A stretch of 28,909 nt of DNA from a virus: positions 1 through 28,909 of the IMG/VR virus record IMGVR_UViG_3300034101_003382; one strand, 5' to 3'. The translations under genes and the position numbers were made by a program. How positions within the stretch are numbered: the stretch's first letter is position 1; each line of letters begins with the position of its first letter. Positions 409 to 26,280 of this stretch are shown one piece after another. The notes beneath the pieces are model-generated. The model ran no database searches and was not told where the DNA came from. It saw nothing but the letters and a program-made list of their open reading frames with translations.

Positions 409-1033
409 GATTTTATCAGATTTTCGGATATTATCAGCAGCCCACAATGGTTGTAAATTAGTATAATGAAAACAGTTCTTTTGGATCTGTTAAATCAAAA
501 CTAGCACAAGGAATTATATGATCTATATGCCAACCATTTTTACCATAGTTTTCCCAATTCATACCTTGTTGAAATAATTTAGATAAATATTCTTTTAAAA
601 ATTCAATGCTGCATCCAATCAACTCCTTTGTAGTTCCATGTTTTTTATTGTTTTTTATCGCTTGGTTTAATCTGCTTCTGAGACTGCCTTTTATCCTATA
701 TAATATATCATTTTGTCTTTTGTTCTTTTCGTATTTTCTTGAGTGTTTTCGATAAACTTTAGAACTTTTATATGTTAAGATTTGCTTTTTATTTTTTTCA
801 TAATATTTTTGATTATATTCCAAAATTTTATCTTTGTTTGAGTCCCTATATTCTATCATATAGTCTTTTCTTTTTGATAAAATCTCTGACTTGTTTTTTT
901 GAAAATGCTGCTTATGATATAGAGCAACACAACTCTTACATCTTGCGTCCAGCCCAAATGCTCCACCTTTTTTCTTATAAAAAGATGTAAATAGCTTTTT
1001 CTTTTTACATAAACGACATACTTTTTTAGACAT
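403..1033 (-). pseudogene. HNH homing-type endonuclease, frameshifted near the C-terminus
   Basis: Start ATG at 1033 is chosen for its good ribosome binding site (AAGGAG) and because the protein then begins MSKKVCRLCKKKKL like its paralogues; upstream in-frame codons are spurious. An N-terminal CxxC zinc ribbon is followed by a long Lys-rich helical linker and the HNH core GWHIDHIIPCASFDL. The open frame stops at 458-460 after KELFSLY. Moving one base restores CFHYTNLQPLWAADNIRKS and a stop at 403-405, matching the two intact paralogues at 9893 and 11868. The likely lesion is loss of one TG from TGTG, giving ctgttt for ctgtgtttt. The lost part holds the conserved Asn of the HNH fold, so the truncated product is probably inactive unless the shift is bypassed or is a sequencing error. 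A class 2 promoter motif lies just upstream (minus strand, 1052-1062). Confidence 0.8.
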
Positions 1034-1044
1034 TTTTAACTCCT

Positions 1045-1062
1045 TATTTATGGATACACCAA
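1045..1062 (-). promoter_or_regulatory. Class 2 promoter motif (TTGGTGTATCC) for the HNH pseudogene
   Basis: Read on the minus strand this is TTGGTGTATCCATAAATA, directly followed by AAGGAG and the HNH start. It is nearly the same as the plus-strand motif before the intact HNH gene at 9893 (TTAGTGTATCCTAAATATAAGGAG). No -35 box is seen. Confidence 0.5.
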
Positions 1063-1115
1063 TTTTCAAGAATTCACACAATTTCCTACTATCGGAGAAG
1101 CATTGGGCTGGAATA

Positions 1116-1295
1116 ATGAAACACTTTAATATCACTGCTCAAGTTTATAAAAATAACGATCTTTCAAAACAAAATTTATTAATAAATGAAGTTCATGATG
1201 GTTTAACTTCTGAAGAAGCGTTAGATCATTTTAAACTTCATTTTCCTTCAATCGAGTATTCTTTAGTAAGAATTTTATCTACAGAAGAGATATGA
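1116..1295 (+). CDS. Small hypothetical protein (59 aa)
   Basis: The product MKHFNITAQVYKNNDLSK...SLVRILSTEEI is not recognised. It looks like a compact alpha/beta protein without membrane segment or signal. An in-frame ATG at 1050 would add 22 residues, but that stretch overlaps the minus-strand HNH promoter and has no ribosome binding site, so ATG 1116 is preferred, although the nearest GGAGAAG (1094) is rather distant. The gene ends in an ATGA overlap with the glycosyltransferase-like gene at 1292, so the two are probably translated together. Confidence 0.6.
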   Translation: MKHFNITAQVYKNNDLSKQNLLINEVHDGLTSEEALDHFKLHFPSIEYSLVRILSTEEI

Positions 1296-5547: not shown

Positions 5548-5677
5548 AGATAAAATACATGACTGTAGGGCGTATATCTCATCAGATTTTTGTGTGAGTT
5601 GTAATGAGATGTACAATAATATTCAAAAGTATGAAAAAGAGATAAAAGTTCTAAAAGATTTATACCATAACGATTAA
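5498..5677 (+). CDS. Small coiled-coil protein (59 aa)
   Basis: ATG 5498 follows GAGGAAG and overlaps the upstream gene by 50 bases in another frame. The product MVNPTNEEIKRKIRDLEDK...NDFCVSCNEM-like body (actual motif SDFCVSCNEM) ends in a Lys/Glu-rich helix. Charged heptads suggest a short helical hairpin, with a CxxC at its turn. Family unknown. Overlap and size make this a moderate-confidence call. Confidence 0.55.
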   Translation: MVNPTNEEIKRKIRDLEDKIHDCRAYISSDFCVSCNEMYNNIQKYEKEIKVLKDLYHND

Positions 5678-5692
5678 AAAATTTCCCAATGG

Positions 5693-5720
5693 TTGACAGG
5701 ACTGATACCGATGGTATAAT
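5693..5720 (+). promoter_or_regulatory. Class 1 promoter of tRNA-Ile
   Basis: TTGACA (5693-5698), 16 bases, TATAAT (5715-5720). The spacer holds CTGATA and then CCGATG, variants of the shared element. Transcription should start about 25 bases before the tRNA. Confidence 0.85.
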
Positions 5721-5753
5721 ACCAATATGACAATTGATGATCTTTCACAACTT

Positions 5754-5827
5754 GGGGCGTTGCAGCCGGTAGTTGCACATACTCTTATAAGGTATTCAAA
5801 AGGTAGGTTCGACTCCTACACGCCCTA
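5754..5827 (+). tRNA. tRNA-Ile(UAU), slightly non-canonical
   Basis: Acceptor GGGGCGT (5754-5760) pairs with ACGCCCT (5820-5826) with one terminal G-U; discriminator A5827. T arm GTAGG-TTCGACT-CCTAC is perfect. Anticodon stem ATACT/GGTAT closes loop CTTATAA, giving anticodon TAT (5786-5788), which reads the Ile codon AUA. The D arm (GCAG/TTGC, loop with GG) has only one linker base where two are usual, and the variable loop is a little long. CCA is not encoded. A matching class 1 promoter precedes it. Confidence 0.75.
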
Positions 5828-5837
5828 TTTAATTTAT

Positions 5838-6083: not shown

Positions 6084-6314
6084 ATGAACTATAGATCAAA
6101 ACACCTAACAGCATATACGTTTCTGATTGGAATGTTGCTTTTTTCAGTAGGAGCAAATATTCTATTCTATAACAGAATAATGATTTTGCAAGACTTTATA
6201 ATAGGTTCTAATACTTGGATGACTGTTGATCAGTTTGATTATATACAGGAAGAAATTCAAAGATTAGCAAATGAAAAGTATCAAATAGTTCCATCAAATA
6301 AATATATAAACTAG
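6084..6314 (+). CDS. Small membrane protein (76 aa)
   Basis: Starts directly after the previous stop with GAGGAA at 6075-6080. One clear transmembrane helix (about residues 10-28, AYTFLIGMLLFSVGANILF) precedes a soluble helical C-terminus (QFDYIQEEIQRLANEKYQ). No family recognised. The G of its TAG stop is the first base of the tmRNA acceptor stem, so the mRNA and tmRNA overlap by one base and must be separated by processing if cotranscribed. Confidence 0.65.
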   Translation: MNYRSKHLTAYTFLIGMLLFSVGANILFYNRIMILQDFIIGSNTWMTVDQFDYIQEEIQRLANEKYQIVPSNKYIN

Positions 6315-6667
6315 GGCGAGTAAAGGTTTCGACTACATATCGGAGATTATATTAGCAAGTAGTGGTTGGTGGACAGGCCACTTTAAAAGTCTACCAAATG
6401 CTGTAACTGGCACAAATCAGTTAGCACTTGCTGCCTAACAAAAAAGGGCAGTAACAGACTGCGATACCGAATGAGGGTAGGTATCAAAAGTCTGTCGTTA
6501 AATCCCTCTGCACTTACAATGTCCAACGGGTTGTAGGTTAAGAGCAGTTGGAAAGATAGAATGAATCTTGTTTGTTCTATAATTCTATCTCACTATGAAC
6601 AAAATAAACTTGTAGAAAATATTTTTGATGCTATGATAGGACAGGGGTTCGACTCCCCTCTCGTCCA
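6314..6667 (+). ncRNA. ssrA: tmRNA (one-piece transfer-messenger RNA)
   Basis: The 5' end GGGCGAG (6314-6320) pairs with CTCGTCC (6660-6666); discriminator A6667. The hallmark GGTTTCGACT follows the 5' acceptor strand, and the T arm AGGGG-TTCGACT-CCCCT is perfect (6643-6659). Pseudoknot 1 is visible: GTGG 6362-6365 with CCAC 6378-6381, interleaved with GGTGGAC 6368-6374 and GTCTACC 6389-6395. After the typical TAACT, the tag reading frame starts at GGC 6409 and reads GTNQLALAA, stop TAA 6436-6438, with the canonical LALAA degradation end. CAGACT/AGTCTG further down marks a second pseudoknot region. tmRNA rescues stalled ribosomes with SmpB and tags the nascent chain; no smpB is in this window. 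CCA is not encoded. Confidence 0.93.
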
Positions 6668-6675
6668 ATAATTTT

Positions 6676-7029
6676 ATGACCAGAAAATTTTGCTCATACT
6701 GCGGAAAAAGAAAAAATAAAGGAAGTTTTCCTAAACACAGTATGTACAAAGACAATTTAGATAGTCGTTGTAAAAGATGTGTTAAAAAACAAACTAAGGT
6801 TCGCAACAAACTTCACAAAAAAGCGCCGCCTCGTCCAGAACTTTGTGAGTGTTGTAAAAAAGTACCACTAAAATGGTGTTTAGATCATGATCATTCTGAT
6901 GATAGTTTTAGGGGATGGATTTGCGAACGATGTAATACTGGATTGGGTAAATTAGGAGATAATTTAGAAGGAATTGTTAAAGCTGTGAATTATTTAATTG
7001 CCAAACAAAATGATAAATATATTAATTAG
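6676..7029 (+). CDS. Recombination endonuclease VII-like protein
   Basis: A 117-residue protein with an N-terminal CSYC...CKRC zinc finger (about residues 6-36) and the endonuclease VII core: CECC, then WCLDHDHSDDSFRGWICERCNTGLG, with the DHDH catalytic motif and the second zinc Cys pair. T4 gp49 (endo VII) resolves branched DNA; the short stand-alone versions with an extra N-terminal zinc finger are usually seen as homing-type endonucleases. It begins nine bases after the tmRNA, a position typical of an endonuclease that targets a conserved RNA-gene end. It overlaps the following glycosyltransferase by 20 bases. Confidence 0.85.
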   Translation: MTRKFCSYCGKRKNKGSFPKHSMYKDNLDSRCKRCVKKQTKVRNKLHKKAPPRPELCECCKKVPLKWCLDHDHSDDSFRGWICERCNTGLGKLGDNLEGIVKAVNYLIAKQNDKYIN

Positions 7030-7630: not shown

Positions 7631-8175
7631 TATATTATTTTACTCCATATCAAACAAAAAACTTAGGACAAGCATATAATCATTACTGTGATCTAGTACC
7701 AAATGATGATGATTGGATAACATTTTCTGATGGAGATGTTATGCAGTTACATCTGAACTGGGGGGAAATTTGGCAATCAATATTAGAACGAAATAATGAT
7801 GCCGGAATAGTAACTTGCTTATCTAATAGAGCGATCAAAGCAAATATAGATCAAGTAGTATTTGAAATGTATGATAAATCAGATATTATCGAACATAAAA
7901 AATTTGCTCTAAAATTATGGAATTCAAATGGCTACATAACAAAATCAATGACTCAAAAAATATTTTCTGGATTTTTCTTTTCATTTAAAAAAAGAACATG
8001 GAAAGAAGTTGGTGGTTTTATGGATGGTATACTTCATGTTGATACCGATTTTTTTCATAAAATTATCATAAAAAATAAAAAATGTTTGGTTGCTCAAGGA
8101 TTTTACGTTTTACATTATTATAGATTAATGGAGGGATGTTTCTATAAAAAGCATCTAAGAATTCCATCAAAATAA
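7627..8175 (+). CDS. Glycosyltransferase (GT-A fold, DGD motif)
   Basis: A 182-residue protein starting MIYYFTPYQTKNLGQAYNHYC. The segment NDDDWITFSDGDVMQL (about residues 26-41) is the canonical nucleotide-sugar-binding DxD, and the later FSGFFFSFKKRTWKEVGGFMD...HVDTDFFHKI is the acceptor-binding and catalytic half (GGF, then an acidic D.D). Similar compact glycosyltransferases occur in phages and capsule loci. ATGA-coupled to the upstream family 2 enzyme. Confidence 0.8.
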   Translation: MIYYFTPYQTKNLGQAYNHYCDLVPNDDDWITFSDGDVMQLHLNWGEIWQSILERNNDAGIVTCLSNRAIKANIDQVVFEMYDKSDIIEHKKFALKLWNSNGYITKSMTQKIFSGFFFSFKKRTWKEVGGFMDGILHVDTDFFHKIIIKNKKCLVAQGFYVLHYYRLMEGCFYKKHLRIPSK

Positions 8176-8215
8176 TAACTATTATTTAGACGATTTATTA
8201 AATTCAACTTCATAA

Positions 8216-8228
8216 GGTGTAAATAAAT
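8216..8228 (+). promoter_or_regulatory. Class 2 promoter motif GGTGTAAATAAAT
   Basis: CATAAGGTGTAAATAAAT lies in the short gap between the glycosyltransferase and the DUF6356-like gene. It matches the GGTGTAT class with one change and has no -35 box. Confidence 0.4.
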
Positions 8229-8254
8229 TATAATCTTTAATGGGTTATAATCAA

Positions 8255-8461
8255 ATGAATCTTTATAAAAAATGGATAAATCATCTTAAAGAAAATAATA
8301 TGACATATATAGAGCATTTAATTTTTGCTCTATTTTATGGATGTTCTTGTGTTTTTGCGGGAATTCTGTTAATCATACATTCTATATTGCCTTGTTTTTT
8401 TCCAACAGCAGGAAGCGATTTAGTCAGAAGTTTAAATAAACGATTCAAGAATAAAAACTAG
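8255..8461 (+). CDS. DUF6356-like small inner-membrane protein
   Basis: The product MNLYKKWINHLKENNMTYIEHLIFALFYGCSCVF has the DUF6356 layout: short basic N-terminus, a YxEH motif, one or two hydrophobic helices (about residues 20-50) ending HSILPCFFP, and a basic tail. The family is small, membrane-bound, of unknown function. Start 8255 matches the family's usual N-terminus; an in-frame ATG at 8240 would add five residues, and neither has a clear ribosome binding site. Confidence 0.6.
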   Translation: MNLYKKWINHLKENNMTYIEHLIFALFYGCSCVFAGILLIIHSILPCFFPTAGSDLVRSLNKRFKNKN

Positions 8462-8472
8462 ACTACCGATAC

Positions 8473-8501
8473 TTGACAATACGCATCCTATGCTGTATAC
8501 T
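8473..8501 (+). promoter_or_regulatory. Class 1 promoter of the DNA ligase gene
   Basis: TTGACA (8473-8478), 17 bases, TATACT (8496-8501). Here CCGATA lies immediately upstream of the -35 box instead of in the spacer, which holds GCATC. AAGGAG (8512-8517) precedes the start at 8526. Confidence 0.85.
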
Positions 8502-8525
8502 GACTAGACACAAGGAGAAATTGGA

Positions 8526-9839
8526 ATGATTCACGATTTTAATTATGTTATGGGAATGGTTCGTGATCTTCGTGCTACTAGCAGCACTATTGATAAACAA
8601 GGAATTATTCTGGATTATTGTGGACACAATAGTGCCGCAGCATCTTTCACCAAGAATATTTTGCTTTATACCTATCATCCGTTGTGGCAATATAATATCA
8701 CTAGTGATAATCTCAAGAAGAAGAATCATCTTGTAGCCAGAAAAAATGAATACAAAAATTTCTTTGATCTACTGGATGCTCTAAAGAGTCGAAAGATTAC
8801 TGGACACGATGCTATCTCTGCTGTGAATAGTTTTATTGAACACTATTCCGAATACGAAGAACTTATCCATTGTATTATTGACAAGGATTTGAAAACCCGT
8901 GCTGGAGATAAGATTATCAATAAGGCTATTCCTGACCATATTCCAGAATTTAGTGTTGCTCTGGCAGATAAGTATGAACCTAAACTGGTAAGTTGGAAGG
9001 ATAATTGGTATGTCTCCAGAAAAATTGACGGCGCTAGATGTATTGCTATTGTTGATAGTAATGGGGATGCTACCTTCTATTCCCGCACAGGAAAAGAGTT
9101 TGATACTCTTGGTATTGTTGCTGGTGGCATTAAGGCTCTTGGTATTACTGATGTAGTATTTGATGGTGAACTTTGTCTTGTGGATGATGAAGGTAATGAA
9201 GATTTTCAGGGAATTATGAAGCAACTGAAAAAGAAGGATCATACCATTCCTAATCCGTCATATAAGATTTTTGATATGATTAGCCATGATGAGTTTTATA
9301 GTAAGAAGGGCGAGAAAAATAAGCCATATTCTATTCGTTTGGCTAATCTAAATGAAGTTATGAAAAAGAATGAGTGTCAGTGTCTTACTGTTCTTGAGCA
9401 AGAACTTATTCATAATGATGAGCATTTTCAGGAGTGGGTTAAAGAGGCCGCTGATTATGGATGGGAAGGAGTTATGCTTCGTGCTGATGAACCATATAAG
9501 GGCAAGCGAAGTAAAGACCTACTGAAAGTTAAGAAGTTTTTTGATGACGAATACGAAGTGGTAGATGTTGAAATGGGACCATTTAGGTATGTTTCTAATG
9601 GTCAAGAGACTGAAGAAACTATGCTTAGTTGTGTAATGATTAAACACAAAGATCATATTGTGCGAGTTGGTAGCGGGTTTACTATTGATCAGAGACAAGA
9701 ATTCTATTGTAATCCGTGTAAAATCCTTGGGAAACAAATTTTGGTACAGTATTTTGAAGAAACCAAGAACCAAGATGGCGGTATCTCATTGAGATTTCCG
9801 ACCTTTAAGTATCTTTATGGAGAAAAAAGAGACACCTAA
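8526..9839 (+). CDS. ATP-dependent DNA ligase
   Basis: A 437-residue ligase that seals nicks in duplex DNA through a ligase-AMP intermediate. Motif I is KIDGAR with adenylated Lys at residue 166; later motifs are FYSRTGKEF (Ia/III region), VFDGELC, YGWEGVMLR (motif IV) and LLKVKKF (motif V). An N-terminal helical DNA-binding domain (about 1-150) and a C-terminal OB domain (about 330-437, ending in a PTFKYLYGEK motif VI-like end) complete the fold, close in size to T4-type phage ligases. Start follows AAGGAG and a class 1 promoter. Codons favour AAG, ATT and GGT. Probably active in phage replication and repair. Confidence 0.95.
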   Translation: MIHDFNYVMGMVRDLRATSSTIDKQGIILDYCGHNSAAASFTKNILLYTYHPLWQYNITSDNLKKKNHLVARKNEYKNFFDLLDALKSRKITGHDAISAVNSFIEHYSEYEELIHCIIDKDLKTRAGDKIINKAIPDHIPEFSVALADKYEPKLVSWKDNWYVSRKIDGARCIAIVDSNGDATFYSRTGKEFDTLGIVAGGIKALGITDVVFDGELCLVDDEGNEDFQGIMKQLKKKDHTIPNPSYKIFDMISHDEFYSKKGEKNKPYSIRLANLNEVMKKNECQCLTVLEQELIHNDEHFQEWVKEAADYGWEGVMLRADEPYKGKRSKDLLKVKKFFDDEYEVVDVEMGPFRYVSNGQETEETMLSCVMIKHKDHIVRVGSGFTIDQRQEFYCNPCKILGKQILVQYFEETKNQDGGISLRFPTFKYLYGEKRDT

Positions 9840-9892: not shown

Positions 9893-10501
9893 ATGAAAAA
9901 ATATAAGATATGTGGTAAATGTAATAAAAAACATAAAGAATGGACAAAGGGAACACAATGTAAAAATTGTAGATCTCTATGTAAAAAACAATGTTATCAA
10001 AAAAATAAACCTAAATATTTAGATAGAATCAATAAATATTATCAAGATAATAAAGAAGAAAAATTAAATTACGCTAAACAATATAGAAATAAAAATAAAA
10101 ATAAATGTAGTGAATATTTTTCTATTAATGCTGAAAAAATCTATAAGCAAAGAGCAAAAAGAGAAAAACAAAAAAGAAATACGGATATAGGTTTTAGAAT
10201 ACAATCAAATCTACGCAAAAGATTGTATAGGGCAATAACTACAAATAAAAAGTATCAATCAACATTAGAATATTTAGGTTGTTCGATAGAAGAATTAAAA
10301 ATACACTTAGAAAAACAATTTAAAAAAGGAATGACTTGGAATAACTATGGAAAATGGCATATAGATCATATTAAACCTTGTGCTAGTTTTGATCTGAGTT
10401 TAGAAACTGAACAAAAAATATGTTTTCATTACACCAATCTACAGCCCTTATGGGCTATAGAGAATATTAAAAAAAGTAATAAGATTTCCACCAACATTTA
10501 A
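9893..10501 (+). CDS. HNH homing-type endonuclease
   Basis: A 202-residue protein: N-terminal zinc finger (CGKC, later CKNC; residues about 7-27), a long Lys/Asn/Tyr-rich helical linker (about 28-110) that probably contacts DNA, and an HNH core starting near residue 155 (WHIDHIKPCASFDL, then CFHYTNLQPLW). Intact, and closely similar to the HNH proteins at 11868 and 403-1033. It sits between ligase and a nucleotidyltransferase-fold gene, with its own class 2 promoter and AAGGAG site. Such free-standing enzymes cut cognate sites in related phages and spread by recombination. Very A-rich coding. Confidence 0.9.
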   Translation: MKKYKICGKCNKKHKEWTKGTQCKNCRSLCKKQCYQKNKPKYLDRINKYYQDNKEEKLNYAKQYRNKNKNKCSEYFSINAEKIYKQRAKREKQKRNTDIGFRIQSNLRKRLYRAITTNKKYQSTLEYLGCSIEELKIHLEKQFKKGMTWNNYGKWHIDHIKPCASFDLSLETEQKICFHYTNLQPLWAIENIKKSNKISTNI

Positions 10502-11867: not shown

Positions 11868-12488
11868 ATGAAACAATGTGTGAGATGTAAAAAAAATAAA
11901 AAATTGACCCAGTTTCATAAACAAAAGGCTTCTGCTGATGGACACAAATCATGGTGTAAAATCTGCACTCAAGAATATGGGAAAAAACATAAACAAAAAA
12001 ATAGAAAGAAAATTAAAAAACAACAAAAAGAATATAAAATCAAAAATAAAAATAATTTGAATGAATATAATAAACAATGGAGAAAAGATAATCCAGATAA
12101 AGTTTTTGAAATCCGTAAAAAATATAGAGAAAAATATAGAGATAAAATTAATAAAAGACGACGACAGAAACGTAAAGCAAATATTAATTTTAAATTAAGA
12201 ACTATCATTAGTAATCGTATTAGAATGGCTTTATCTAGAGGCTCAAAAAATAGTACAGCTTATGAATTAACAGGTTGCTCTTGGGAACATCTGAAACTAT
12301 ACTTAGAAAGCCGATTCACAGTCGGTATGAGTTGGGATAATTTTGGAGAATGGCATATAGACCACATCAAACCTTGTTGTAGTTTTGATCTTACTGATTT
12401 AGAGCAACAAAAATTATGTTTTCACTATACGAACCTACAACCGCTATGGGCTATTGATAATCTAAAGAAGTCTGGAAAATTATTATGA
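11868..12488 (+). CDS. HNH homing-type endonuclease
   Basis: A 206-residue paralogue of the HNH protein at 9893. N-terminal zinc finger CVRCKKNKK...CKIC (about residues 4-35), a Lys-rich helical linker (about 40-110), and an intact HNH core from about residue 162 (WHIDHIKPCCSFDL, CFHYTNLQPLW). It sits right after the HhH-GPD gene with its own class 2 promoter, and its stop overlaps the next start (ATGA). The start MKQCVRCKKNKK follows a weak TTAGGA site. Confidence 0.9.
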   Translation: MKQCVRCKKNKKLTQFHKQKASADGHKSWCKICTQEYGKKHKQKNRKKIKKQQKEYKIKNKNNLNEYNKQWRKDNPDKVFEIRKKYREKYRDKINKRRRQKRKANINFKLRTIISNRIRMALSRGSKNSTAYELTGCSWEHLKLYLESRFTVGMSWDNFGEWHIDHIKPCCSFDLTDLEQQKLCFHYTNLQPLWAIDNLKKSGKLL

Positions 12489-14470: not shown

Positions 14471-14748
14471 GGGGCTTTGGCGAAACAGGCAGACGCAAGG
14501 GACTTATACAATTTGAGTGCATAAGGAGAAATCTTTATAGTAGAACCTGTCAAATTCGGTGAAGGCTTAACTGCTAATACCGAGCCAAGCATAGAAATAT
14601 GAAGGTGTAGAGACTTGACGGCAGGAACCTAAAATGAAAATTATGGTTAAGATAAAGTCCAGACTACAAACCGAAAGGGTAGTGAAAACTATAGTAGTAA
14701 GAAAATCCCTCGGAGAAATCCATGTGGGTTCGATTCCCACAAGCCCCA
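14471..14748 (+). tRNA. tRNA-Leu(UAA) interrupted by a group I intron
   Basis: 5' exon 14471-14505 and 3' exon 14702-14748. Acceptor GGGGCTT (14471-14477) pairs perfectly with AAGCCCC (14741-14747); discriminator A. Anticodon stem AGGGA (14498-14502) pairs with TCCCT (14706-14710); joined loop CTTAAAA gives anticodon TAA for Leu UUA codons. The variable arm (CGGAGAAATCCATG region) is class II as expected for Leu, and the T arm GTGGG-TTCGATT-CCCAC is perfect. The intron splits the anticodon after U34, exactly where the cyanobacterial and plastid trnL(UAA) intron sits. CCA is not encoded. Confidence 0.93.
14506..14701 (+). ncRNA. Group I intron (IC3-like) in tRNA-Leu(UAA)
   Basis: 196 bases from ATACAATTTGAGTGC to ...TAGTAAG. 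The 5' splice site follows U14505; exon ACTT pairs with intron GAGT (P1) giving the required U-G at the splice site, and the intron ends in G. The R-like element GTAGAGACTTGACGGC and S-like element AAGATAAAGTCC form P7 (GACT/AGTC), and P4-P6 pairing segments are visible around AATTCGG/CCGAG. No open reading frame inside. Self-splicing through an exogenous guanosine is expected from the family. Confidence 0.9.
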
Positions 14749-15207
14749 CTATTTATTTTTTGCACGATAGTTGTCAGTTAAAGCATGACAGTTAGGACAA
14801 AGTAATTCAAGATTGGATAAAGTATTATTTAAATTATTACCATCTTTATGATGTAATTCAATAGGAATAAGTTGATTAAGCCAAGTTTTTTGTTTACAAT
14901 TGTTGCATTTATGTTCAAAAATTTGTTCTTTAATTAGTCTCTTTTTAAGTTTCCAACTTTGTATAGTTTGTTTATTAGAAAGATAATCTTGAATAGATCT
15001 TTTTGGACCTAATTTTTGACCTTTATTCCAACCCTGTAAAGTAAAATGAGAAATATCAATATTATACAATTTAATATGTTTCTTTAGACAGGCATAGTTC
15101 CCTCCTGCTGGAGCGATATTCATTTTTTGTAGACATTGACGATAACTAAAAGATTCTGAACAAATTTTAGATAAATTTTCTTTTGTATAATGATGTTTAT
15201 TATTCAT
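14749..15207 (-). CDS. HNH endonuclease converging on tRNA-Leu
   Basis: 152 residues from ATG 15207 (MNNKHHYTKENL), chosen for the AGAGGAG site just upstream. The C-terminal HNH domain has CNNC zinc Cys, IELHHKDGNNLNNTLSNLELLCPNCHALTDNYRAKN: the HHKDG catalytic motif, Asn-rich loop and second CPNC. This is a different HNH subfamily from the three Lys-rich ones. The N-terminal part looks like a DNA-recognition helix region (SFSYRQCLQKM). Its stop codon is adjacent to the tRNA discriminator base, a position fitting a homing enzyme that cuts the intron-bearing tRNA locus of intron-free relatives. Own class 2 promoter on the minus strand. Confidence 0.9.
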   Translation of the reverse strand: MNNKHHYTKENLSKICSESFSYRQCLQKMNIAPAGGNYACLKKHIKLYNIDISHFTLQGWNKGQKLGPKRSIQDYLSNKQTIQSWKLKKRLIKEQIFEHKCNNCKQKTWLNQLIPIELHHKDGNNLNNTLSNLELLCPNCHALTDNYRAKNK

Positions 15208-15218
15208 AATCGCTCCTC

Positions 15219-15246
15219 TTGACATTCAAAAAGCAAACGCTAAAAT
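15219..15246 (+). promoter_or_regulatory. Sigma70-type promoter of gene 15285, no CCGATA
   Basis: TTGACA (15219-15224), 16 bases, TAAAAT (15241-15246). Unlike the other class 1 promoters its spacer lacks the CCGATA element. It overlaps the oppositely oriented class 2 motif of the HNH gene. Confidence 0.7.
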
Positions 15247-23614: not shown

Positions 23615-23990
23615 AATAGACGTATCATTAAAATATAAATGCACAAATAAAGATTGTGGTTTTGATCATTGGCTCTTTTTAAGAGAAGCCAAGACAAAAA
23701 ATTTCAAGATAGTGTGCGATTGCGGCACGATTTTTAAACCAAAACGCATACAAAATATAGAAGTAGTCTACGCTATAAAAGAGTCAGTTGAAAAACCAGT
23801 AGACAATCCAGAGGAATCTGGTAAAATGGAAGATATAGAATGTGTATCTCGTGCAATAAACATGATGATATCTTTAGGATATTCAAAAAAAGACGCACAA
23901 GATAGTGTAATTTTTATTTTCAAAAACGAACACATTTTTGATCCATCAGTTCTTGTTAAAAAAGCAGTCTTACATATTGGAGGAATATAA
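23580..23990 (+). CDS. Zinc-ribbon protein with RuvA domain III-like C-terminus
   Basis: 136 residues. The N-terminal half (about 15-60) has CTNKDCGFDHW and later CDCGTIF, a zinc ribbon. The C-terminal segment (about 88-134), CVSRAINMMISLGYSKKDAQDSVIFIF..., matches the three-helix RuvA domain III / UBA-like pattern (a..aL..LGy...eA...v), the part of RuvA that contacts RuvB. The gene sits directly before ruvB with a TAATG overlap. No RuvA OB or HhH domains are present. It may recruit or stimulate the phage RuvB in place of host RuvA. Confidence 0.65.
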   Translation: MKTKLKVQKPIEIDVSLKYKCTNKDCGFDHWLFLREAKTKNFKIVCDCGTIFKPKRIQNIEVVYAIKESVEKPVDNPEESGKMEDIECVSRAINMMISLGYSKKDAQDSVIFIFKNEHIFDPSVLVKKAVLHIGGI

Positions 23991-24895
23991 TGAGCAAGGG
24001 TATAAGACCATCAACGTTTGATGAAATTATTGGGCAGGATGCTGTGATTAAGCGTCTGCGAGTGTCTGTGACGGGATGTAAAAACATAGGCAGTGTGATG
24101 CCTCACGTTTTAATAGACGGCCCTCCGGGGCTTGGAAAGACTACTATAGCGAGTGCCATAGCCAACGAGATGGGAGTTAACCTGTATACAACAAATGCCG
24201 CTAGTATACGAAGTATTAAGAATATTATGCCATATATTATGGGAATGACTCCAAGATCAGTATTATTTATTGATGAGATACATAGGCTACCAAAGATTGT
24301 TGAAGAATTTTTGTATCCTGTAATGGAAGATTTTGTTCTTAATATTACGGTTAAGGATGACGAGGATAAAGAAGTTGCAGAAAAAATTGATTTACCAATA
24401 TTTACCATTGTTGGAGCAACAACAAGCGGCGGTAGTCTAAGTCAGCCATTTTATGACAGGTTTACTATTAAGGAGCATTTATCGTTTTATACTGATGATG
24501 ATCTAGCTAAACTAGCAAGGTTGAACTGTACAAAATTGAACATAGTCATAGATGATTCAGACCTCTTTGAAATTGCTAAAAGAAGTAAGGGTACTCCACG
24601 AATTCTTAATGCTAGACTACAATGGTATAGAAATTATCGTTCTTGTCATACTGACAATGCTAGTATTAGTGAGATTTTTGATGTTCAAGGAATTGATGAG
24701 AATGGTTTGGATATGTATGATAGAATGTATTTAAACGCTCTAAAAAAGAGCAAGGGATCCCCACTTGGGTTAAAGTCTATATCTTCAATGACAGGCATTG
24801 CTATTGATACTATCGAGAATAGTATAGAGCCATATCTCGTTAGAAAAGGATACATAGTCAGAACACAACAAGGTAGAATTATTGGTAATTTATAA
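23990..24895 (+). CDS. ruvB: RuvB-like Holliday junction branch-migration helicase
   Basis: A 301-residue AAA+ ATPase with RuvB layout: RPSTFDEIIGQD start, Walker A GPPGLGKTT (44-52, K50), Walker B LFIDEIHRL (D95, E96), sensor 1 GATTSGGSLS, YDRF with Arg157 at the arginine-finger position, and a C-terminal winged helix ending in GYIVRTQQGRI. RuvB drives branch migration with RuvA and RuvC; in phage it would process recombination or replication intermediates. Length is slightly below the bacterial enzyme. GGAGGA site; a strong terminator follows. Confidence 0.93.
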   Translation: MSKGIRPSTFDEIIGQDAVIKRLRVSVTGCKNIGSVMPHVLIDGPPGLGKTTIASAIANEMGVNLYTTNAASIRSIKNIMPYIMGMTPRSVLFIDEIHRLPKIVEEFLYPVMEDFVLNITVKDDEDKEVAEKIDLPIFTIVGATTSGGSLSQPFYDRFTIKEHLSFYTDDDLAKLARLNCTKLNIVIDDSDLFEIAKRSKGTPRILNARLQWYRNYRSCHTDNASISEIFDVQGIDENGLDMYDRMYLNALKKSKGSPLGLKSISSMTGIAIDTIENSIEPYLVRKGYIVRTQQGRIIGNL

Positions 24896-25278: not shown

Positions 25279-26280
25279 ATGGCAAAAGGTTTAGATGTAG
25301 GTACAAGTTATATTGTTTTATCACAAGAAAATAATCAAGGTATACAATATAAAGATTTTAGAGACGCATTTTACATTATAAAACCTACAACACCAGTAGC
25401 CACTAAAATGATAGAAAAAGGACTAAATGGAAAAGTTTTTATTAAAGATAGTGATGGTTCATTTATTATCTTAGGAAAAGATGCTATAGAAAAAGCTGTA
25501 GAAAGAAACGACACGGCCAAAAGACCAATGTATAGAGGCGTCGTTTCTGCTAAAGAAAAAGATGCTAAAAGAATACTCGCATTTATACTCAAAGAAGTAG
25601 TTGGACAGGCATCTGAACCAAATGAAAAAATAGTATTCTGCGTACCAGCACAACCAGTAGATCAAGAAGACGATGATTTTGATGTTGGATATCATGAAGA
25701 TATAGTAAAAACTATATTATCAGAATGTGGCTATGAAGCCAGAGCAATAAATGAAGCAGAAGCGTTGTGCTATTCTGAACTAGAGCAAGATGATTATACA
25801 GGAATAGGTGTTAGTTGTGGCGCTGGTATGACAAATGTGTGTGTAATGTTAAATGGTGAGCCTACAGTGGTTTTTAGCACAACAAAGTCTGGTGATTGGA
25901 TTGATAGAATGAGTGCTGTTGCAACCGGAGAGCCAGATAGTGTTGTTCAAGCAGAAAAAGAGGGAGGGGTATTTAAGATTGGCGAACATAATGATAATCC
26001 TATTTTGTCTGCGGTATCATCTTATTATGAAAGACTTATAGATTATACAACAAAAAATCTAAGCCTAGCTTTACATAATCATAAAGCATTACCAAAATTT
26101 AAAAATCCATTAACAATAGTCATAGCTGGTGGCACATCTCTAGCGAATGGCTATATCGAAGAGTTTGCTAAAAAAATGAACGAAAATAATTTTCCAATTA
26201 AGATTAAAGAAGTCAGACACGCTATTGATCCATTACATTCAGTTAGCAAAGGATGCTTAATAGCATCTAAAATATTATGA
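25279..26280 (+). CDS. Actin/Hsp70-fold ATPase (ParM/MreB-like)
   Basis: 333 residues with all motifs of the actin-like ATPase fold: phosphate 1 LDVGTSY (5-11), connect 1 INEAEALCYSE (157-167), phosphate 2 GIGVSCGAGMTNV (174-186) and adenosine motif VIAGGTSLANGY (281-292). Length fits ParM/MreB and is shorter than DnaK, with no substrate-binding domain. Such phage proteins can form filaments that position DNA or virions, but a chaperone-like role is also possible. Overlaps the next gene by ATGA. The class 2 promoter at 24956 probably drives the unit. Confidence 0.85.
   Translation: MAKGLDVGTSYIVLSQENNQGIQYKDFRDAFYIIKPTTPVATKMIEKGLNGKVFIKDSDGSFIILGKDAIEKAVERNDTAKRPMYRGVVSAKEKDAKRILAFILKEVVGQASEPNEKIVFCVPAQPVDQEDDDFDVGYHEDIVKTILSECGYEARAINEAEALCYSELEQDDYTGIGVSCGAGMTNVCVMLNGEPTVVFSTTKSGDWIDRMSAVATGEPDSVVQAEKEGGVFKIGEHNDNPILSAVSSYYERLIDYTTKNLSLALHNHKALPKFKNPLTIVIAGGTSLANGYIEEFAKKMNENNFPIKIKEVRHAIDPLHSVSKGCLIASKIL

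Follow-up and report, generated by a model that had tools for sequence, protein, structure and literature searches.

A complete one-piece tmRNA gene conserved in a lineage of uncultured phages

Introduction

A putative transfer-messenger RNA (tmRNA) gene on a phage genome raises the question of whether it is a complete, selected gene of the virus, where it came from and what it might do during infection. Such genes have been reported in mycobacteriophages Bxz1, Cali, Catera and Wildcat and in Bacillus phage G (PMC4131195), and 402 of 18,146 phage genomes were found to carry one (PMC9004378). The DNA analyzed here (the window) is a virus record of 28,909 bases with 33% G+C, a fragment of an uncultured phage that apparently came from fresh water. 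It encodes RIIA, RIIB, an ATP-dependent DNA ligase, a RuvB-like ATPase and an actin-like protein, together with a glycosyltransferase, a UV-endonuclease-like protein and several HNH/endonuclease VII genes. No close annotated phage was found among 50,697 records, in which relatives of the ligase and the RuvB-like protein stayed below 60% identity. Relatives are abundant in IMG/VR, and our impression is that their source waters are mainly fresh.

Results

Identification of the tmRNA gene

Two independent detectors, ARAGORN and the Rfam model RF00023, were applied to the window, and both detected a tmRNA. ARAGORN placed a one-piece gene with the tag GTNQLALAA* at 6314-6667 on the + strand, on which all features of the RNA described below also lie. 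RF00023 matched 6314-6670 over its full length (model positions 1-374) with 111 bits (E 7.1e-43), the gathering score being 47 bits. Both gave the one-piece order, which excludes a permuted (two-piece) arrangement. Thus, the original prediction of a complete phage tmRNA with this tag was borne out, and the elements that it had reported as readable, namely both ends, pseudoknot 1 (PK1), the TAACT motif and the LALAA end, are all present.

The 5' strand of the acceptor (GGGCGAG, 6314-6320) pairs with 6660-6666 (CUCGUCC) in the window's own sequence, with a G-U as the third pair. Its first G is also the final base of the TAG stop of a 76-aa ORF with a hydrophobic N-terminal stretch (6084-6314, +), just as had been noticed from the sequence. 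Such an overlap is optional, being present at 21 of 93 distinct phage tmRNA loci. At the other end, CUCGUCC-A is followed by AUA (TCCA then ATA in the DNA); because CCA is not encoded, an enzyme must add it. The tRNA-like domain is completed by a D-loop with the motif AGGUUUCGAC (6324-6333), one base off the E. coli GGAUUCGAC, and by a T-arm with a UUCRA-type loop (AGGGG-UUCGACU-CCCCU, 6643-6659), which accompany a 7-bp acceptor containing G3-U70. Between them, UAACU (6404-6408) immediately precedes the resume codon GGC, and its U, A, A and final U are invariant in 52 copies. The tag frame (6409-6438) reads GGC ACA AAT CAG TTA GCA CTT GCT GCC TAA, and thus has a resume signal upstream and a hydrophobic/Ala C-terminus.

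Conserved structure of the phage tmRNAs

The predicted fold was examined by comparison among phage copies. RNAalifold on 52 distinct phage tmRNAs gave 75 pairs, 47 of which had changed on both sides in a compensatory way at least once. In addition, a structure of 68 pairs, drawn up from the window's own sequence and with the pseudoknots counted in, was scored on 52 distinct phage copies: 95.3% of cells were paired, and 50 pairs (487 cells) showed two-sided change. On no measure did any of 500 shuffles match this structure; relatedness of the sequences can inflate such tests, and a control that retains relatedness, with partners slid by 1-3 columns, gave at most 47% paired. PK1 (6361-6395; stems 6361-6365/6378-6382 and 6368-6374/6389-6395) had two-sided compensatory changes in 9 of its 12 pairs. 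PK2 (6455-6508), PK3 (6513-6552; two-sided changes in 13 of 13 pairs), the main stem of PK4 (6554-6590) and the T-arm all form in the window; covariation was found for the crossing stems of PK1, PK2 and PK3, and the test of PK4 covered its main stem. These comparisons indicate that the tmRNA structure is under strong selection.

The third acceptor pair was GU in all 51 scorable copies, and pairs 4-7 swapped among GC, CG, AU and UA, changing on both sides. Since G3-U70 is the identity element of alanyl-tRNA synthetase (AlaRS) and is invariant here, selection for alanine charging is the simplest reading.

The same data bear on the idea that the RNA is a decoy which mainly titrates host SmpB or ribosomes and thereby inhibits host rescue, as proposed for phage DS6A. 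DS6A does have a tag-less tRNA-like form, and a similar molecule inhibits tmRNA (PMC4131195, PMC11915505). However, a decoy would have no need of a tag frame, a resume signal or pseudoknots, all of which are conserved here with compensatory changes, and we therefore consider this explanation very unlikely.

Variation of the tRNA elbow

The window tmRNA and the majority of phage copies have a canonical elbow, with GG in the D-loop and UUCGAYU in the T-loop. Two sets of variants were observed among relatives. In the first (A18 with G55; L271, L178, L195, L066, L060, L025, L078 and L214), A replaces the first D-loop G and the T-loop reads G-G-C-A-G-x-x or U-G-C-A-A-A-U. In the second (L203, L169, L184, L077, L189, L015, L075 and L183), the T-loop has six bases and the D segment is mostly shorter by one base. 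ARAGORN misses several of these variants, and suspected absent or broken tmRNAs in relatives proved mostly to be complete genes that it had missed, often on account of odd T-loops. The D-loop and T-loop changes occur together although they lie approximately 300 bases apart, a co-occurrence in which shared descent and repeated change are not separated. Such apparently coordinated changes are the most unusual thing that we observed.

Distribution and genomic context

Conservation was analyzed at 36 loci, defined as relatives of the ligase with at least 4 kb of upstream sequence. A profile of phage tmRNAs detected the gene at 33 of them, almost always on the same strand as the DNA ligase and 0.2-5.3 kb upstream of it. 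Thus, the original view that phage tmRNAs are uncommon holds for phages generally but not for the lineage of the window. A tmRNA above the Rfam cut-off was also present in 16 of the 18 long records (100-233 kb), some of which had been picked for a matching tag pattern. Because three of the 36 loci have no tmRNA near the ligase and the copy of one relative is interrupted, the gene is not strictly essential. The interrupted copy (L036, 7942-8921) is split inside PK1 by approximately 590 bases that contain an endonuclease VII-type ORF (8101-8640); the insertion shows no recognisable group I intron. In one exception to the usual order, L076, the tmRNA lies downstream of the ligase; the same record has a match to the abiF RNA family (5554-5590; 41.7 bits, above the gathering score). 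In the phage collection, the tmRNA region of the window found just a 29-base T-arm match in two crAss-like phages. The crAss-like phages cr7_1 and cr124_1 (L317 and L318, 1440-1796) have annotated tmRNAs, which ARAGORN reads as permuted with an odd tag.

Upstream of the tmRNA, the window has a perfect-consensus sigma-70 promoter (TTGACA-16-TATAAT with an extended TG; 5693-5720, +) approximately 33 bases before a tRNA-Ile (UAU) gene (5753-5828, +; ARAGORN). The best promoter within 1.5 kb upstream of the tmRNA matched at 12 of 12 positions in 22 of 76 loci, compared with none of 76 for shuffled sequence, and at 11 or more in 45 loci, compared with 5. Where a tRNA-Ile is present, this promoter is often just 5' of it, and the two RNAs are probably co-transcribed. 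The UAU anticodon is uncommon for tRNA-Ile among bacteria; the gene is retained upstream of the tmRNA in many relatives.

Directly 3' of the tmRNA is an endonuclease VII-type, homing-like gene (6676-7029, +; PF02945, E 6e-11; phrog_2633, E 1.6e-21). Other homing-like HNH/endonuclease VII-type genes are found at 458-1135 (-), 9893-10501 (classed by resemblance only), 11868-12488 and 14749-15225 (-), and one gene of this group adjoins a group I intron. The anticodon loop of a tRNA-Leu(UAA) gene (14471-14749) is interrupted by a 196-base group I intron, and introns resembling it are present in two Chloroflexota genomes (78-79% over approximately 157 bases). Elsewhere in the window, the actin-like protein (25279-26280) matches Pfam Volactin with 219 bits and has relatives in the phage collection in two very large uncultured phages only, and the RuvB-like ATPase (23990-24895) has a P-loop and a C-terminal winged helix and matches clamp-loader families as well.

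SmpB, proteases and the fate of the tag

The original prediction had seen no smpB and suggested that the host protein was used. Our search found no SmpB in the window and, when extended to 18 related records of 100-233 kb (which are possibly incomplete), none there, while SmpB was found in 10 control bacteria. On these grounds, use of host SmpB would be the natural reading. A ClpP-like gene occurs in 16 of the 18 relatives, and a phage ClpP was considered as the protease for the tag. This was disfavoured because the two cases examined look like head maturation proteases, which are their best PHROGs matches, and one adjoins terminase; the tag is thus probably directed to host proteases.

Tags in the lineage follow the pattern G-x-x-Q-(L/F)-ALAA, with GTN, GET, GVN and GNT as common starts. 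Their uniformity could favor a phage-specific rerouting, in which a viral tag that differs from the host tag sends proteins to a particular fate; the original prediction had named rerouting of tagged proteins as one possible role. However, ALAA is an ordinary degradation-tag end, G-x-x-QLALAA tags are also present in some bacteria (mostly Chloroflexota), and the ClpP-like genes point to head maturation as noted above, so this speculative alternative seems even less likely than a decoy.

Origin and host

When 193 tmRNAs were placed in a tree, those from phages (72) fell into one clade with support 1.0. No sampled cellular tmRNA exceeded 53% identity with the window tmRNA, the sample being Chloroflexota, Acidobacteriota, Bacillota and E. 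coli only, with many phyla missing. Being one clade and distant from every sampled cellular copy, the phage tmRNA appears to have been viral for a long time and not to have been captured recently. A functionless passenger captured from a host, for example by imprecise excision at ssrA, finds some encouragement in ssrA being a frequent site of integration among bacteria (PMC11915505) and in the window being a fragment, but it is extremely improbable in view of this clade and divergence (many phyla being unsampled), the conserved position across relatives and a covariation that shows long selection.

Several routes to the host were tried. First, the phage clade joins AT-rich Bacillota in the tree (support 0.75), which is probably a base-composition effect. 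Second, a search for G-x-x-QLALAA in 84,980 bacterial genomes gave 44 stretches, mostly from Chloroflexota. This tag lead was undercut because a looser pattern was matched by just 11 of 201 evenly drawn Chloroflexota, Acidobacteriota tags read A-x-x-QLALAA, and the search pattern itself had fixed the first G; the tag shared with some Chloroflexota is at most a weak lead to the host. Third, protospacer and DNA matches in 400 Chloroflexota genomes were confined to the group I intron region with its tRNA exons, plus one 24-base hit. Finally, ribosome-binding sites precede 19 of 34 genes (13% background); together with the consensus TTGACA/TATAAT promoters, these sites speak against a host from the Bacteroidota.

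Discussion

The gene, its fold, its tag frame, its conservation and its position are direct observations. From the sequence, we consider it very probable that the phage makes a functional one-piece tmRNA which acts as a normal tmRNA with the host AlaRS, CCA-adding enzyme, SmpB and Clp protease. Host RNA polymerase would transcribe the tmRNA and tRNA-Ile from the promoter at 5693-5720, host RNases would trim the transcript, a host enzyme would add CCA, and host AlaRS would charge the RNA with alanine via G3-U70. With host SmpB, the tmRNA could then enter ribosomes stalled on broken mRNA; translation would move to the GGC codon, (Ala-)GTNQLALAA would be appended, and the LALAA end would mark the chain for ClpXP-type proteolysis by the host. 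The likely benefit is that ribosomes are kept free and rescue capacity stays high while host RNA is destroyed or outnumbered in infection.

A bolder view would be that an old, purely viral tmRNA lineage stands in for the rescue RNA of the host and carries a viral tag that hardly varies, and that some members have rewired the otherwise near-universal elbow, either from G18-U55 to A18-G55 or through six-base T-loops combined with a D segment shortened by one base, which would imply altered SmpB contact or avoidance of host factors. We regard this combination as doubtful. The elbow variants could serve as natural experiments on the tmRNA contacts that SmpB truly requires.

Far from being a curiosity, the tmRNA gene is nearly universal and under strong selection in one widespread lineage of uncultured phages, a finding that argues for the importance of ribosome rescue in phage infection. 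Moreover, the recurring order of promoter, tRNA-Ile and tmRNA gives a simple, testable hypothesis for its expression.

Phage tmRNAs are already known, and what is new is a well-supported example in an uncultured lineage. The window copy resembles bacterial one-piece tmRNA (ssrA; RF00023) in its acceptor with G3-U70, T-arm, D-loop motif, pseudoknots, resume signal and ALAA tag, but differs in being phage-encoded, in having no detected smpB and no encoded CCA, and in its distance from the sampled cellular copies. With Bxz1, Cali, Catera, Wildcat and Bacillus phage G (PMC4131195) it shares a phage tmRNA gene, whereas it belongs to a different phage lineage with no DNA similarity found to those tmRNAs in the phage collection. 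Methylophage Melnitz (PMC9004378) likewise represents an aquatic phage with a tmRNA, for which early expression was proposed; however, the Melnitz tmRNA is two-piece and permuted with a glutamine riboswitch, whereas the window copy is one-piece, and none of the riboswitch families in Rfam passes its threshold in the window. Finally, the tRNA-like RNA of mycobacteriophage DS6A is also a phage RNA related to tmRNA, but it extends scarcely beyond the tRNA-like domain, whereas the tmRNA of the window is complete.
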